From Streptomyces phaeolivaceus (lineage in GTDB: Bacteria; Actinomycetota; Actinomycetes; Streptomycetales; Streptomycetaceae), in assembly GCF_009184865.1 (NCBI RefSeq), contig NZ_CP045096.1, forward strand, positions 6,820,001-6,884,000: a stretch of 64,000 bases of DNA. The letters run 5' to 3'. Positions 12,524 through 57,177 of the stretch are shown here, one piece after another. Within the stretch, counting starts at the first letter, position 1. Each line of letters begins with the position of its first letter. Both the position numbers and the translations under genes were made by a program. The notes below the pieces were generated by a model, which saw only the letters and a list, made by a program, of their open reading frames with translations, did not search any database and had not been told where the DNA came from.

Positions 12524-12619
12524 AGTCGGCGGACAGAGCCATGAAGGTGAACGGGCAATCTTTTCGGCACAGGCAAGAAAGCATGCCGAAGACCGGAACT
12601 CCACGACGGGGGGCGCGAG

Positions 12620-26471: not shown

Positions 26472-27452
26472 GTGTTCGCTGCAGAACGTCGTCAATTGAT
26501 CCTCGAAATGGTGCGGGCCAATGGAGCCGTGTCGCTCCGTGAGCTCGCCCGCGTCGTCCAGACCTCCGAAGTGACCGTACGGCGGGACGTGCGCGCTCTG
26601 GAGGCAGAAGGACTCCTCGACCGCCGGCACGGCGGTGCGGTATTGCCGGGCGGGTTCACGCGGGAGTCCGGCTTTCCGCAGAAATCTCATCTCGCGACCG
26701 CCGAGAAGACGGCCATCGCCGACCTCGCCGCGAGCTTCGTCGAAGAGGGCGAGGCCATCGTGGTCGGGGCGGGGACCACCACGCAGGAGCTGGCACGCCG
26801 GCTCGCGCGGGTCCCCGGGCTGACCGTCGTCACCAACTCCCTGCTGGTGGCCCAGGCGTTGGCCCATGCCAACCGTGTGGAGGTCGTGATGACCGGCGGC
26901 ACCCTGCGCGGTTCCAACTACGCCCTGGTCGGCTCCGGTGCCGAGCAGTCCCTCCAGGGGCTGCGCGTCTCCAAGGCCTTCCTCTCCGGGAGCGGACTGA
27001 CCGCCGAGCGCGGCCTGTCCACGTCCAACATGCTGTCGGCGTCCGTGGACCGCGCGCTGGTCCAGGCCGCCGCCGAGGTCGTTGTCCTCGCCGACCACAC
27101 CAAACTCGGCACCGACACCATGTTCCAGACGGTGCCGACCGATGTCATCACCCGGCTGGTCACCGACGACCCGCCCGGTCACGACGACCGCGCGGTCACC
27201 GAGTTGCAGGCCCTGGCCGATCAGGGCGTGCAGATCTCCGTGGCCGGGGCGTCGGGCGGCGGTGGTACGGGAGGCGATCCCGTCCCGGCGCGCCCGTCGC
27301 GCCGGGACGTGCCCCTTCCGGGACCCCGCCGCAACCAGGTCCACGGCACCGCGCCCCAGTTGCGCACCGCCACGGTCCTGGGCGACCAGCCGCCGGCCGG
27401 CGAACGGGAGCGGGAGCGGGCGGCCCGGGTCGCGGATCTGCGCCGCCGGTAG
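26472..27452 (+). CDS. DeoR/GlpR-family transcriptional regulator
   Basis: A 326-residue DeoR-type regulator. The N-terminal winged helix matches the family (AAERRQLILEMVRANGAVSL, RELARVVQTSEVTVRRDVRA, RRHGGAV). The effector domain has the sugar-phosphate-isomerase-like fold with VVGAGTTTQELAR, VVTNSLLVAQAL, VVMTGGTLRGSNYALVG and VVLADHTKLG. A 70-residue Pro/Arg-rich C-terminal tail is extra. Family members usually sense a phosphorylated sugar; deoxyribose 5-phosphate is the effector of E. coli DeoR. Because nucleoside genes with a shared operator lie nearby, this is a candidate for their regulator, but nothing in the sequence proves it. Predicted leaderless start GTG. Confidence 0.87.
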   Translation: MFAAERRQLILEMVRANGAVSLRELARVVQTSEVTVRRDVRALEAEGLLDRRHGGAVLPGGFTRESGFPQKSHLATAEKTAIADLAASFVEEGEAIVVGAGTTTQELARRLARVPGLTVVTNSLLVAQALAHANRVEVVMTGGTLRGSNYALVGSGAEQSLQGLRVSKAFLSGSGLTAERGLSTSNMLSASVDRALVQAAAEVVVLADHTKLGTDTMFQTVPTDVITRLVTDDPPGHDDRAVTELQALADQGVQISVAGASGGGGTGGDPVPARPSRRDVPLPGPRRNQVHGTAPQLRTATVLGDQPPAGERERERAARVADLRRR

Positions 27453-52840: not shown

Positions 52841-53884
52841 ATGACCACCACTGTTGCCGCCTACGCGGCGCCCGCCGCCAAGGCTCCGCTGGAGCGCACC
52901 ACGATCGAGCGCCGCGAGGTCGGTGAGCACGACGTTCTGATCGACATCAAGTACGCCGGAATCTGTCACTCGGACATCCACCAGGCCCGTGAGGGCTGGG
53001 GCGAGGCGATCTTCCCGATGGTCCCCGGCCATGAGATCGCCGGTGTCGTCGAGGCCGTCGGCTCCGGTGTCACCAAGTTCGCCGTCGGCGACAAGGTCGG
53101 CGTCGGCTGCATGGTCGACTCCTGCCGCGAGTGCGAGAACTGCCGGGCGGGCCTGGAGCAGTACTGCCTGAAGGGCAGCGTCGGCACGTACAACGCCGTC
53201 GGCAAGGACGGCGAGCCCACCTACGGCGGCTACGCGGAGAAGATCGTCGTCGACGAGGCCTTCACCGTACGCATCCCCGACGGCATCGCCCTCGACGAGG
53301 CCGCGCCCCTGCTGTGCGCCGGCATCACCACGTACTCCCCGCTCAGGCACTGGAACGCCGGCCCCGGCAAGAAGGTCGCCGTCGTCGGTCTCGGCGGCCT
53401 CGGCCACATGGGCGTCAAGCTCGCGAACGCGCTGGGCGCCGAGGTGACCGTCCTGTCGCAGTCCCTCCGCAAGAAGGACGACGGTCTGAAGCTGGGCGCG
53501 ACGCACTACTACGCCACGAGCGACGAGGCGACGTTCAAGGAGCTGGCGGGCACGTTCGACCTCATCCTGTCGACGGTCTCGGCTCCGCTGAACCTCGACG
53601 CGTACCTGTCGTTGCTGAAGACCGACGGTGCCTTCGTGAACGTCGGCGCGCCCGAGGAGCCCGTCGCGCTCAACCTCTTCTCCGTCATCGCCGGCCGCAA
53701 GACCCTGGCGGGGTCCGGCATCGGTGGCATCCAGGAGACCCAGGAGATGCTCGACTTCTGCGCCGAGCACGGCCTCGGCGCCGAGATCGAACTCATCCGC
53801 GCGGACCAGATCAACGAGGCGTACGAGCGGGTGCTGTCGAGCGACGTCCGCTACCGGTTCGTGATCGACACGTCGACGATCTGA
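52841..53884 (+). CDS. zinc-dependent NAD(P) alcohol dehydrogenase (CAD/YahK type)
   Basis: A 347-residue medium-chain dehydrogenase of the cinnamyl-alcohol branch. Catalytic zinc ligands are Cys in GICHSDIH and Glu/His in PGHEIAG. The structural zinc site is [15 protein letters not shown]. The nucleotide-binding fold is [14 protein letters not shown], and [13 protein letters not shown] follows the second strand, suggesting NADP specificity. It probably reduces aldehydes. The ATG at 52841 has CAGGAGA 8-9 nt upstream. Divergent from the XRE regulator. Confidence 0.92.
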
Positions 53885-53940: not shown

Positions 53941-55077
53941 TCAGTCGGCGTCGGAACCGGTTCCGCGACGCTCGACAGCGTACATGTTGCAGTTGGGGTA
54001 CCTCGGGCAGTGTTTGAGCTGAACGTCCTTGTCGTGGAAGTTCGTGTAACGCCTCGCCATTCCCCCTGATGCCTTGGGGGCGGATTTGAAGGGTGTGAAC
54101 GTCTTGTTGCACCTGCACGGCTTCGACGACCCCTCGTCGAAATGGTCGTACTTCGTGCTGTCGCCGACCTTTCGGTGATACACGATCTCCCCCGGTTGCA
54201 GTTCGCGCTTTTCGTGCGGCGAATGGATATCCATGTCAAGGGCGATAGGGATCAATGTCTGCCGCGTATGCGTCAGCAGGTTCGAGAAGGATGAACCCGG
54301 GGTGCCCACGATCAATTCCGTGACCTCGTCACTCTTTTCGTGCGCAACCTTCTGGGACGACTGCCAGCCACGCAGCCGTATCTTCGTATCGATCGTGTCG
54401 CGAAGTTGAGGGCCTCGCGCGCGCAGCTGGGTGGTACGCGTGATGAATTGGGCGCGCATCCCGAGCACCGAGGCGACCGTGCGAATCTGGGACTGCCAGT
54501 CAGCCGGCACGTCGATGTATCCGGAAACCGAGGGATCGCCGAGCCACAGGAGATTCTTCGGCTTGGAGAGTTCGGGCAGGGTGATCTCGCGGACGTTGAA
54601 CTCCTTCCACCACATCTCCAGGTACTCCGTCACGTCACAGGCATCCTCGGCGATGTCCACGGGGAGCGATTCCGTGTGTACTTCCACGACCTCCGGCGGT
54701 TTGCTCGCGGAAGTGGCGACCCGCAGCGAGACGAAATATGTGTCTGTGCCGTCTTTTCCTCTGACGAGAGATGCCTGCAAGAACTCGTGGAGGTTGTCTT
54801 CGCGCCTACGCATCAGTGCCACGCCCGGTGAGTTGACGACTTCCCGCGCGCAGACGAGCGCCGTTCCGGTGGAGAGGCCTCCTTGCCGGAGCTGGCTGAG
54901 CACATCGTTGAGGAACCCTGAGCCACTCCTGCGTTCAAGGTGTTGGCGCAGGAGGGAGTACCCGCGTCTCTCGCCGAGGATGAGATCGGCTGGATCGCCG
55001 GTCAACTCCTCGTAGGCACCTTCCCGCTGAATCAGCAGCGCGAGGTTACATGCGGCCCTGCCGCTTTTCGCAGCCAT
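53941..55077 (-). CDS. accessory-module gene 2: protein of unknown function with C-terminal Cys cluster
   Basis: A 378-residue protein that I cannot place in a family. N-terminal helices (ACNLALLIQREGAYEELTGD, RRGYSLLRQHLERRSGSGFL) precede a region with several strands (TDTYFVSLRVATSASKPPEV, WWKEFNVREITLPELSKPKN, LWLGDPSVSGYIDVP). The C-terminal 50 residues contain CRC and CPRYPNC, a probable zinc knuckle, together with basic residues. Starting at ATG 55077 it lies 19 bp downstream of the partner gene, so both are probably one operon. The local GC is visibly lower than in flanking genes. Nucleic-acid binding is inferred only from the Cys/basic end. Confidence 0.6.
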   Translation of the reverse strand: MAAKSGRAACNLALLIQREGAYEELTGDPADLILGERRGYSLLRQHLERRSGSGFLNDVLSQLRQGGLSTGTALVCAREVVNSPGVALMRRREDNLHEFLQASLVRGKDGTDTYFVSLRVATSASKPPEVVEVHTESLPVDIAEDACDVTEYLEMWWKEFNVREITLPELSKPKNLLWLGDPSVSGYIDVPADWQSQIRTVASVLGMRAQFITRTTQLRARGPQLRDTIDTKIRLRGWQSSQKVAHEKSDEVTELIVGTPGSSFSNLLTHTRQTLIPIALDMDIHSPHEKRELQPGEIVYHRKVGDSTKYDHFDEGSSKPCRCNKTFTPFKSAPKASGGMARRYTNFHDKDVQLKHCPRYPNCNMYAVERRGTGSDAD

Positions 55078-55096
55078 GTCCGGATGCCGTATGAGA

Positions 55097-56056
55097 TTAG
55101 AGGTCGCCGAGCAGGTGTTCGGCCCGGATGGGAATGTCTGCCAGCTCCGCGTACGACATACGGTCGATCGCGCGGTGGACGATCTCGCGCAGCCTTTCGA
55201 GATCGCTCCCGCCCGCCGCGCGTGCGTCCCGGGTTTCGGACGTCGACGCGGGCCTGACGTTCTTGTTCGCAGCCCTGTACGTCGGAGAACTCGACGATGC
55301 CGACGACCGCTCAGGTGGCAGAGGGGTGGTGAGATCGTGCCAGGCGACGGCGTGCTGATCCGCCCAGGCGCGCACATGGGCGCCCACCTTGTTCTGCAGT
55401 TCGGCACGCCACTCGAGGGCGAGCCCTCGTGAGTCCAGCACATGCCGGAAGGAGCGCAGCGGCGCGTCCGGTGCCAGCGCGGCGAGCAAGGCGGCACGGT
55501 CGGCGGGTGGCTGCCTGAGCGCCCATGCGCGCATCCATTCCTTCTGTGCCTCCGGGGTCACCGGCTCGATCGCGCGAAAGCGATCCGGTTGGGAGACCCA
55601 GGTGGGCTCGTCGTGTTCGTCCACCGGGTAGACGAACGCCCGGGACGTCCGGGAGTCCCAGAGCCGCCGGTGTCCGTCATGCCATTCGACGAACGCGGCC
55701 CACACATCGGACTTGAAGCGGCTGCGCGCCAGGGAGGTGTTCGAATCGTCGCGCTTGTGACCCTGTTCCAGCTTCGCGGTGGTCACCGCAAGGTTCTCGT
55801 CCGGCAGCAGGATGCCTGTGTGATTGGTCGCCAGCCGCTCCGTCCGTACGTGGCCGGCTTCGGCGGCGGCCTCGACGAACTCGCGCCACGTTCCGAAGCC
55901 GTAGTCCTGCTCGTTCTTGCCTTGCGTCGCCTGGACGAACGCCGGCTTCACGCCGGCGCTGGTGGTGACACGCCCGGCGGACCGCCATTCCCGTACGACG
56001 TCGACCAGCGTCGCGAAGGCGGATTCTCTCTGCTTCGACAGCTCAGGTTCGGTCAT
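55097..56056 (-). CDS. accessory-module gene 1: possible OST-HTH/LOTUS-like domain protein
   Basis: A 319-residue protein. Residues about 12-75 (ESAFATLVDVVREWRSAGRV, VKPAFVQATQGKN, DYGFGTWREFVEAAAEAG) resemble an OST-HTH/LOTUS domain, a winged-helix RNA-binding fold with the conserved YGF turn (52-54) seen in bacterial proteins beside NYN nucleases. The assignment is mine by eye. The middle is helical with many Trp (FVEWHDGHRRLWDSRTSRAF, EWMRAWALRQ). The last part is low-complexity, ending in ELADIPIRAEHLLGDL. The ATG at 56056 is preceded by GAGGGG. A 22-bp palindrome overlaps the upstream region. It lies in a region variable between Streptomyces, as I recall, and may belong to a defence or mobile function. 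Confidence 0.5.
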   Translation of the reverse strand: MTEPELSKQRESAFATLVDVVREWRSAGRVTTSAGVKPAFVQATQGKNEQDYGFGTWREFVEAAAEAGHVRTERLATNHTGILLPDENLAVTTAKLEQGHKRDDSNTSLARSRFKSDVWAAFVEWHDGHRRLWDSRTSRAFVYPVDEHDEPTWVSQPDRFRAIEPVTPEAQKEWMRAWALRQPPADRAALLAALAPDAPLRSFRHVLDSRGLALEWRAELQNKVGAHVRAWADQHAVAWHDLTTPLPPERSSASSSSPTYRAANKNVRPASTSETRDARAAGGSDLERLREIVHRAIDRMSYAELADIPIRAEHLLGDL

Positions 56057-56078
56057 GACATGTGCCCCTCTAAAGTGA

Positions 56079-56100
56079 GATAGCCCCATCGGGGGCTATC
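56079..56100. promoter_or_regulatory. palindromic operator upstream of the accessory module
   Basis: GATAGCCCC and GGGGCTATC are perfect inverted arms separated by ATCG (reading CGAT on the other strand), 22-23 bp upstream of the module start codon. Probable regulator binding site. Confidence 0.5.
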
Positions 56101-56246
56101 GAGAAGAAAACATGTCGTTGCCGCGCCTTGGCAGTGGCTCGCGTGACCTCTGCGGAAATCCGCACCGGTCAGACCCCGTAGGGGGACTTCACCTGCCAGC
56201 ACCACGACGGTTGCGTTGCTGCGGCTGTGTCCCGAGGTTGCCGTTT

Positions 56247-56271
56247 GATCATTTAGACGGGCTAGATGATC
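56247..56271. promoter_or_regulatory. second dyad upstream of the accessory module
   Basis: GATCATTTAG and CTAGATGATC (9 of 10 complementary) with a 5-bp spacer, in AT-rich DNA unlike the surroundings. This could be an operator for a diverging or lost regulator gene. The 56104-56381 gap shows no other feature except a chance 75-codon frame. Confidence 0.45.
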
Positions 56272-56381
56272 CAACGTCAATTAAGTTCTTCGCAGGGAGC
56301 GACCCCGCTGACCGTCATTGTAACGCAGCTGGCCAGCAACGTCACTCGGTCTGATGGCAGAGCCGTCGTCCGGCACGTTCC

Positions 56382-57047
56382 TCAGCCCTCGGCCTTCGCC
56401 ACGCCGATCGGGCAGGACAGGCCCGTGCCGCCGATGCCGCAGTAGCCCGCCGGGTTCTTGTCCAGGTACTGCTGGTGGTAGGGCTCGGCCGGGTAGAAGG
56501 TGCGGCCCTCCGCCGGGAGGATCTCGGTGGTGATGTCGCCGTGGCCGGCGGCGGTCAGGACCTGCTGGTAGGCCTCGCGGGAGGCTTCGGCGGCCTTGGC
56601 CTGGGCCGGGGTGTGGGTGTAGACGGCGGAGCGGTACTGAGTGCCTACGTCATTGCCCTGCCGGTAGCCCTGCGTGGGGTTGTGGGCCTCCCAGAAGACC
56701 TGGAGGAGACGCTCGTAGGAGATCAGGGCGGGGTCGTAGACCACGCGGACCGCCTCCGTGTGGCCGGTGAGGCCGGAGCAGACCTCCTCGTAGGTGGGGT
56801 TCTCCGTGTAGCCGCCCTGGTAGCCGACGAGGGTCGTCCACACACCGGCCGGGAGCTGCCAGAACTTCCGCTCGGCGCCCCAGAAGCAGCCGAGGCCGAA
56901 GTCGGCCGTCTCGTACCCCTCCGGGTAGGGGCCGAGGAGCGGGGTGCCGAGGACGGTGTGCCGGTCCGGGACGGTGAACGGCAGCTCGGCGCGGCCACGC
57001 AGAGCCTGCTCGGGGGTGGGCAGCTGGGGCGTGCGGCCGAAGAGCAT
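56382..57047 (-). CDS. msrA: peptide-methionine (S)-S-oxide reductase
   Basis: A 221-residue MsrA that repairs oxidised methionine with thioredoxin. The catalytic Cys is in [14 protein letters not shown], followed by [52 protein letters not shown] and a resolving Cys near [13 protein letters not shown] at the C-terminus. The ATG at 57047 has a very strong AAGGAGGAGGA ribosome-binding site. It borders the accessory module. Confidence 0.95.
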
Positions 57048-57177
57048 GGGAACTCCTCCTCCTTGGGGCTCGGAAAGAGCGGGCGGTACCTGAGGAACGT
57101 TCCGGCTACCGCCCGCATTCCGCACAGCGTTTCGCGCAGCGTCCCGGGGCGCGTTCCGTACTCGCGGCCTCGCCCGC

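Follow-up and report, generated by a model that had tools for sequence, protein, structure and literature searches.

The stretch of DNA analysed here, called the window, comprises 64 kb of the Streptomyces phaeolivaceus contig NZ_CP045096.1 (positions 6,820,001 to 6,884,000). Between adh (plus strand, ending at 53884) and msrA (56382–57125, minus strand) it holds two minus-strand genes, called gene A and gene B here, that are separated by 19 bases. Directly 5′ of gene A lies a conserved structured RNA. The names adh and msrA are those of an initial annotation made from the sequence and are consistent with the sequences. The same annotation had proposed the two genes, and both are confirmed (56056–55097 and 55077–53941). 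The range it gave ends just before the most conserved part of the locus, the RNA at 56054–56278. This RNA leader is the main feature of the locus, and it was overlooked. Because an RNA of no known family stands together with a LOTUS protein and a protein of no known family, the trio looks like an undescribed mobile RNA–protein module. Its parts are as follows.

53941–55077, minus strand: gene B, 378 amino acids; N-terminal helices followed by a β-sheet, a Rossmann-like α/β region (residues 170–285) and a C-terminal Cys/His cluster (296–368)
55097–56056, minus strand: gene A, 319 amino acids; LOTUS/OST-HTH domain (residues 2–87), UPF0158-like middle (approximately 112–245) and conserved C-terminal helices (approximately 284–316)
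56054–56278, minus strand: conserved structured RNA core, described by the models R1 and R2; directly 5′ of gene A, with the start codon included
56317–56345, minus strand: predicted promoter-like site, GTGACG-17-TACAAT

When the window was compared with Actinomadura flavalba (locus L002), the one relative found in the searched genome contigs, long identical blocks were seen upstream of gene A. The leader is 75% identical over approximately 240 bases; gene A is 70% and gene B 66% identical. The leader alignment scores 197, and 200 base shuffles give a mean of −0.3 with a standard deviation of 9.5. The consensus fold of the two sequences reaches −186 versus −137 ± 7.5 in 100 column shuffles, and the single-sequence folds of the two leaders have z values of −3.0 and −4.3. 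A covariance model, R1, was made from these two leaders. Its matches in two further loci lie immediately 5′ of gene A and extend to the start codon: L131 of genome G900 (E = 1.2e-17) and L132 of genome G1063 (E = 4.2e-14). Since R1 was built without them, these two loci are the strongest test of the RNA. The order RNA–A–B is found in all four loci with readable DNA (window, L002, L131 and L132), which are distant from one another within the actinobacteria. In Rfam, none of the four leaders has a match overlapping the RNA at E ≤ 10.

The predicted structure has 53 base pairs, a pseudoknot included, and its elements are listed here from the 5′ end of the transcript.

56243–56275, minus strand: helix P2; 100% of alignment cells paired, four of seven pairs changed on both sides
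56239–56242, minus strand: GGCA, 5′ strand of a long-range helix with 56130–56133; paired in four of four sequences
56197–56221, minus strand: hairpin P3 with the loop AACCGUC; 96.9% of cells paired, one of eight pairs changed on both sides
56206–56209, minus strand: CGUC in the P3 loop, pseudoknot strand with the predicted partner 56124–56127
56141–56185, minus strand: hairpin P4a and helix P4b; six of eight pairs of P4b and three of four pairs of its inner helix changed on both sides
56130–56133, minus strand: UGCC, 3′ strand of the long-range helix with 56239–56242
56124–56127, minus strand: GACG, 3′ strand of the pseudoknot with 56206–56209
56110–56116 with 56057–56063, minus strand: helix P5, spanning 56057–56116 and enclosing P6 and the Shine–Dalgarno (SD)-like sequence
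56080–56099, minus strand: hairpin P6; five of eight pairs changed on both sides
56065–56070, minus strand: SD-like GAGGGG, inside P5

In the alignment of the four sequences (A6), 96.6% of the cells are paired under this structure, and 20 of the 53 pairs have changed on both sides. These pairs are distributed over P2 (4), P3 (1), P4b (6), its inner helix (3), P5 (1) and P6 (5). None of 500 shuffles reaches any of the five measures used, and controls with slid partners give 30–48% paired cells with two to five pairs changed on both sides. On this covariation, we regard it as nearly certain that the module exists and that its RNA is real. P3 and the GGCA/UGCC helix are absent from R1; they were proposed by RNAalifold and not imposed by the model. 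A plain MAFFT alignment recovers P3, the GGCA/UGCC helix, P4a, most of P4b, and P5. The GGCA/UGCC helix is an RNAalifold prediction on both alignments and is without covariation support because its sole variant is one-sided. P4a is 90.9% paired, and none of its pairs has changed on both sides. The pseudoknot was already in R1. Its pairs show one G–U variant and no change on both sides, and since 15 of the 16 cells are paired with little variation, we consider the P3-loop pseudoknot likely and not proven.

Two other accounts of the upstream conservation can be judged from the same alignments. The first places it at the level of the DNA, as an operator plus promoter, which two-copy identity by itself would fit. 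With the number of pairs changed on both sides falling to a few when the partners are slid, and with conservation extending over approximately 220 bases, we find this very unlikely. The second account, an overlooked coding gene, draws on the open stretches of three leaders, 74 codons long in the window and 73 and 82 codons long in two others. The longest open stretch in the A. flavalba leader is 37 codons, and the indels between the window and A. flavalba leaders are not multiples of three. As the frames are broken in A. flavalba, we rejected a coding leader, and we give the idea almost no weight.

The 3′ end of the RNA is arranged around the translation start. The 3′ strand of P5 occupies the stretch between the SD and the AUG. 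All cells of P5 are paired; six of its seven pairs are invariant and one has changed on both sides, and three pairs are gapped in L132. In partition-function folding, the SD comes out as paired for the window and A. flavalba. Upstream of the RNA, the promoter-like site was the one found, versus a mean of 0.1 in shuffles, and we infer from it a transcript start near 56310. By eye, TGAC...TACACT stands at the matching place in A. flavalba. An extra 5′ hairpin (56293–56310, minus strand) lies just past the inferred start, and by eye the window and A. flavalba appear to differ there by a compensatory change. It was left out of the model because it is unaligned in the other two loci.

The trio is rare. 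Among approximately 5.8 billion proteins, at least 12 matches to gene A and at least 11 to gene B were found, the window's own included, and a profile search with the gene B alignment gave no new matches among the 8000 best candidates scored. The protein searches scored the 8000 candidates sharing the most words with the query, and the proteins of G900 and G1063 were not among the matches; the family is therefore larger than listed. Where source names are given, the matches come from Streptomyces, Actinomadura and Nonomuraea. The data suggest that six A–B pairs, the window's included, are genome neighbours. With its own genome counted, gene B is present in one of 293 genomes of the order, one of 346 of the phylum and three of 394 of the class. 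The gene B profile finds the latter three as the window's own genome, G900 and G1063. In both G900 and G1063, A and B are neighbours, with 31–39% identity to the window proteins. The two genes are kept together as a pair, and the lack of such pairing that the initial annotation would have counted as a refutation was not seen.

The RNA follows the proteins. R2 matches exactly the same three genomes among 296 of the class; as R2 contains these three by construction, the informative part is the absence of others. R1 searched against 295 genomes of the genus finds the window's own genome and one match in G178 (E = 4e-5). The G178 match lies antisense within an open reading frame (ORF) resembling a PfkB-type sugar kinase (read by eye) and was rejected as chance. 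Within the genomes searched, the RNA was seen beside A–B proteins only. The genome samples overlap to some extent, and stricter filters applied to RNA searches of more than 40 genomes.

This distribution bears on the possibility that the leader is riboswitch-like or another kind of cis-regulatory RNA, one that senses a ligand or stress and does no more than control expression, with A and B taking no part in binding it. A leader whose end coincides with the start codon and whose last helix contains the SD would suit such an RNA, as would the conserved unpaired blocks GGCAACC and AACCGUC. Many riboswitches, however, sit before several kinds of gene, whereas R2 placed this leader nowhere else in the class sample, and R1 nowhere else convincingly in the genus sample. 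It also goes with an operon that encodes a LOTUS domain. We consider this explanation doubtful.

In G900 the trio is the cargo of an integrative element. It is flanked by an excisionase-like HTH_17 gene and a gene for a tyrosine integrase (Phage_integrase), behind a TrwC relaxase gene. The element (C1, 12550–26751) measures 14.15 kb and is bounded by exact 49-bp repeats at 12550, which is the 3′ part of tRNA-Ala(TGC), and at 26703. A MazG-like gene (L131, 620–1405) was observed inside the same element. In G1063, 57 bp separate the end of gene B from the 3′ end of a tRNA-Leu, and no repeat of that tRNA 3′ end was found in the contig. With the patterns tried, viral contigs yielded no relative of either protein. 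The pattern searches there returned 48, 4, 36 and 0 stretches; these were taken as chance, as neither set of loci scanned with the RNA models (52 and 36) contained a convincing RNA (best E = 0.15 and 0.049). Among plasmids, searches with both window proteins, with B of L131, with A of L132 and with P0022 gave no relative. Phages gave none for gene B of L131, the sole protein searched there. The leader DNA has just 23–31-base matches in plasmids and phages (E ≥ 0.8).

The LOTUS domain is best known from animal germ-granule proteins. The initial annotation had read residues 12–75 of gene A as such a domain, and the assignment holds, slightly extended to residues 2–87, on structure comparison and the family profile and not on Pfam alone. 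Structure comparison supports a LOTUS-type winged-helix fold. At E < 0.01 the gene A family profile matches 17 of 878 ORFs, every one of them in an OST-HTH locus, and the reversed profile matches none. The family profile recovers 16 of 19 distinct OST-HTH proteins, and three of these 16 are themselves below the Pfam cut-off. The three it misses are those with the best Pfam scores, and gene A is thus nearer to the divergent OST-HTH proteins. A plain Pfam search stayed below significance: sub-threshold OST-HTH matches amounted to none for the window protein and one (E = 0.098) among 12 family members. The window protein has no match in Pfam, NCBIfam or PADLOC at E ≤ 10, or in PHROGs.

The middle of gene A shows only remote similarity to UPF0158 (PF03682). 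Profile–profile comparison gives a probability of 48% and a pairwise E of 2e-4, with 0.1% for the reversed control. Pfam matches to UPF0158 occur in two of 12 members (E = 0.033 and 0.05), scoring 14.1 and 14.6 bits where the gathering threshold is 21.1, and a simple profile weakly finds one of three UPF0158 proteins (E = 0.025). P0012, a 176-residue fragment, was left out of the profile–profile comparison and of A9; further rows left out are P0015 and P0018 from A8 and P0004 and P0006 from A9. An ordinary UPF0158 protein is encoded elsewhere in the host genome (L073; G000:C2, 6159700–6159969), downstream of an uncharacterised ORF, and the relative L072 has a similar arrangement. Past a variable linker, residues 284–316 of gene A (55097–55205, minus strand) form a highly conserved helical motif, LERLREIVHRAIDRMSYAELADIPIRAEHLL. 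No family was found for this motif, which is perhaps a contact to gene B.

According to Anantharaman, Zhang and Aravind (2010, PMC2848206), nearly all bacterial OST-HTH domains occur in fusion with a DUF88/LK-nuclease, and they have no conserved neighbourhoods with known RNA-processing systems. Gene A shares its kind of winged-helix domain with the bacterial OST-HTH/LOTUS proteins. It differs from the DUF88 + OST-HTH proteins described there in that no nuclease was recognised in it, its middle resembles UPF0158, and it comes with a fixed partner gene and a conserved RNA. The gene A proteins of the window, L131 and L132 have no Pfam match to a DUF88/NYN nuclease, and none is among the families matched by the 12 members (E ≤ 10). 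PMC8195603 places OST-HTH with S1 domains in the effector modules of some predicted conflict systems. The main text of PMC3710099 mentions neither OST-HTH nor LOTUS, and among the matches listed from open-licence papers there is no description of the module.

Gene B has no match in Pfam, NCBIfam or PADLOC at E ≤ 10, or in PHROG, and no enzyme family was found for it in these collections, in line with the earlier view that it is unrecognised. The CxC...CX5C cluster noted at that time is real and consists of C321, C323, C357 and C363. Across 11 aligned homologues, C321, H356, C357 and C363 do not vary, and all 11 have Cys or His at position 323. The conserved positions are candidate ligands of a putative zinc site.

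Our preferred reading is that the RNA, the LOTUS-type protein A and protein B form a mobile three-part module in which the leader RNA controls its own LOTUS protein and is probably bound by it. We give this a probability of approximately 50%. A single transcript would carry the structured RNA (approximately 220–250 nt) followed by A and B. The RNA folds, by the computed structure, into P2, P3, P4 and probably the pseudoknot, and its last helix, P5/P6, encloses the SD and ends at the start codon of gene A. With the SD enclosed, the folded leader should hold translation of A–B down. Through its LOTUS domain, perhaps together with B, A may bind the leader RNA and thereby keep the pair under tight self-control, and A, B and the RNA could form a stable ribonucleoprotein (RNP) as the working form. 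If some trigger remodelled the leader, the pair would be set free, most plausibly to act against foreign genetic elements or to maintain the carrier element. A defensive role is plausible. The computations show the triad, the structure of its RNA, the LOTUS domain, the rarity and, for one genome, the mobility; transcription, RNA binding, translational control and the role in the cell are inferred.

Autogenous leaders such as those of ribosomal proteins are structured and enclose the SD. The trio resembles them in having a structured SD-enclosing leader beside a gene for a likely RNA-binding protein; it differs in that its operon is rare and mobile in one genome, and no Rfam leader family matches. 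The module did not qualify as a member of any system tried, and the earlier suggestion of an undescribed system is supported. We put it forward as new as a genetic system, a claim that becomes weaker if the RNA is merely a self-regulating leader. The same annotation had called the system possibly RNA-directed. Since the module includes a conserved structured RNA, this idea has indirect support, which does not extend to an RNA-guided mechanism; the earlier interpretation as a whole is partly supported. The locus ties a LOTUS domain to a specific structured RNA in bacteria. If the RNA is the ligand of A, the two are a compact natural pair for learning how LOTUS reads structured RNA.

Several points weigh against this reading. 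The covariation comes from just four RNA sequences. A6 was fitted to R1 and hence favours the R1 helices, and the shuffles ignore relatedness. The plain MAFFT alignment does not reproduce P2 and P6 as drawn, and it yields some other pairs, which were not kept. P5, the basis of the switch idea, hardly varies, and partition-function folding leaves the SD just partly paired in L131 and L132. A promoter scan of L131 gave no promoter-like site. A small-molecule ligand of the leader could take the place of protein A. On the side of function, nothing ties the trio directly to phage resistance. PADLOC-DB 2023 gave no match for A and B of the window (E ≤ 10) and none for five homologues (E ≤ 0.01).

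More ambitious is the proposal of a new class of RNA-dependent immune or selfish module. Here the pseudoknotted RNA would be a working component bound by A and B, the RNP would recognise or answer invading genetic elements, and the SD-enclosing P5/P6 would act as an infection-sensitive switch. We entertain this tentatively. Related to it is a type III toxin–antitoxin-like or RNP-type anti-phage system, in which the RNA, once processed from the transcript, would function within an A–B complex as inhibitor, scaffold or guide. In type III toxin–antitoxin systems (ToxIN), an RNA is encoded directly upstream of a protein gene. The trio shares this layout and forms a rare cassette, mobile in one genome, and a weakly GajB-like UvrD helicase cassette occupies the same slot of a relative. 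Unlike ToxIN, the trio has no tandem repeats (55950–56420) and no terminator-like site between the RNA and gene A (56000–56420, and 7700–8200 in L131). No toxin or nuclease family was recognised in A or B, and the RNA is larger, with several helices. We consider such a system unlikely.

In the window itself, evidence of mobility is limited to the variable adh–msrA interval, and the 64 kb hold no tRNA genes. Both adh and msrA are present in six of 20 relatives' stretches (three of the 20 are shorter than 10 kb), with a gap ranging from 519 to 5767 bp, which bears out the earlier suspicion of a variable site. The lower G+C content remarked on earlier is also confirmed, at 63.5% in the module versus 71.2% in the window; 0.16% of same-size stretches (50-base steps) are equally low. 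In genome G646 (L037, 3283–6518, minus strand), the adh–msrA slot holds genes for a 742-residue UvrD-type helicase and a 337-residue protein. The 337-residue protein has no match in Pfam or PADLOC. The helicase is weakly GajB-like (best E = 2.8e-5 across 58 residues). With Gabija-type UvrD helicases the trio shares the location only, and the proteins are unrelated to A and B. These two genes are a possible second two-gene cassette at the adh–msrA slot.
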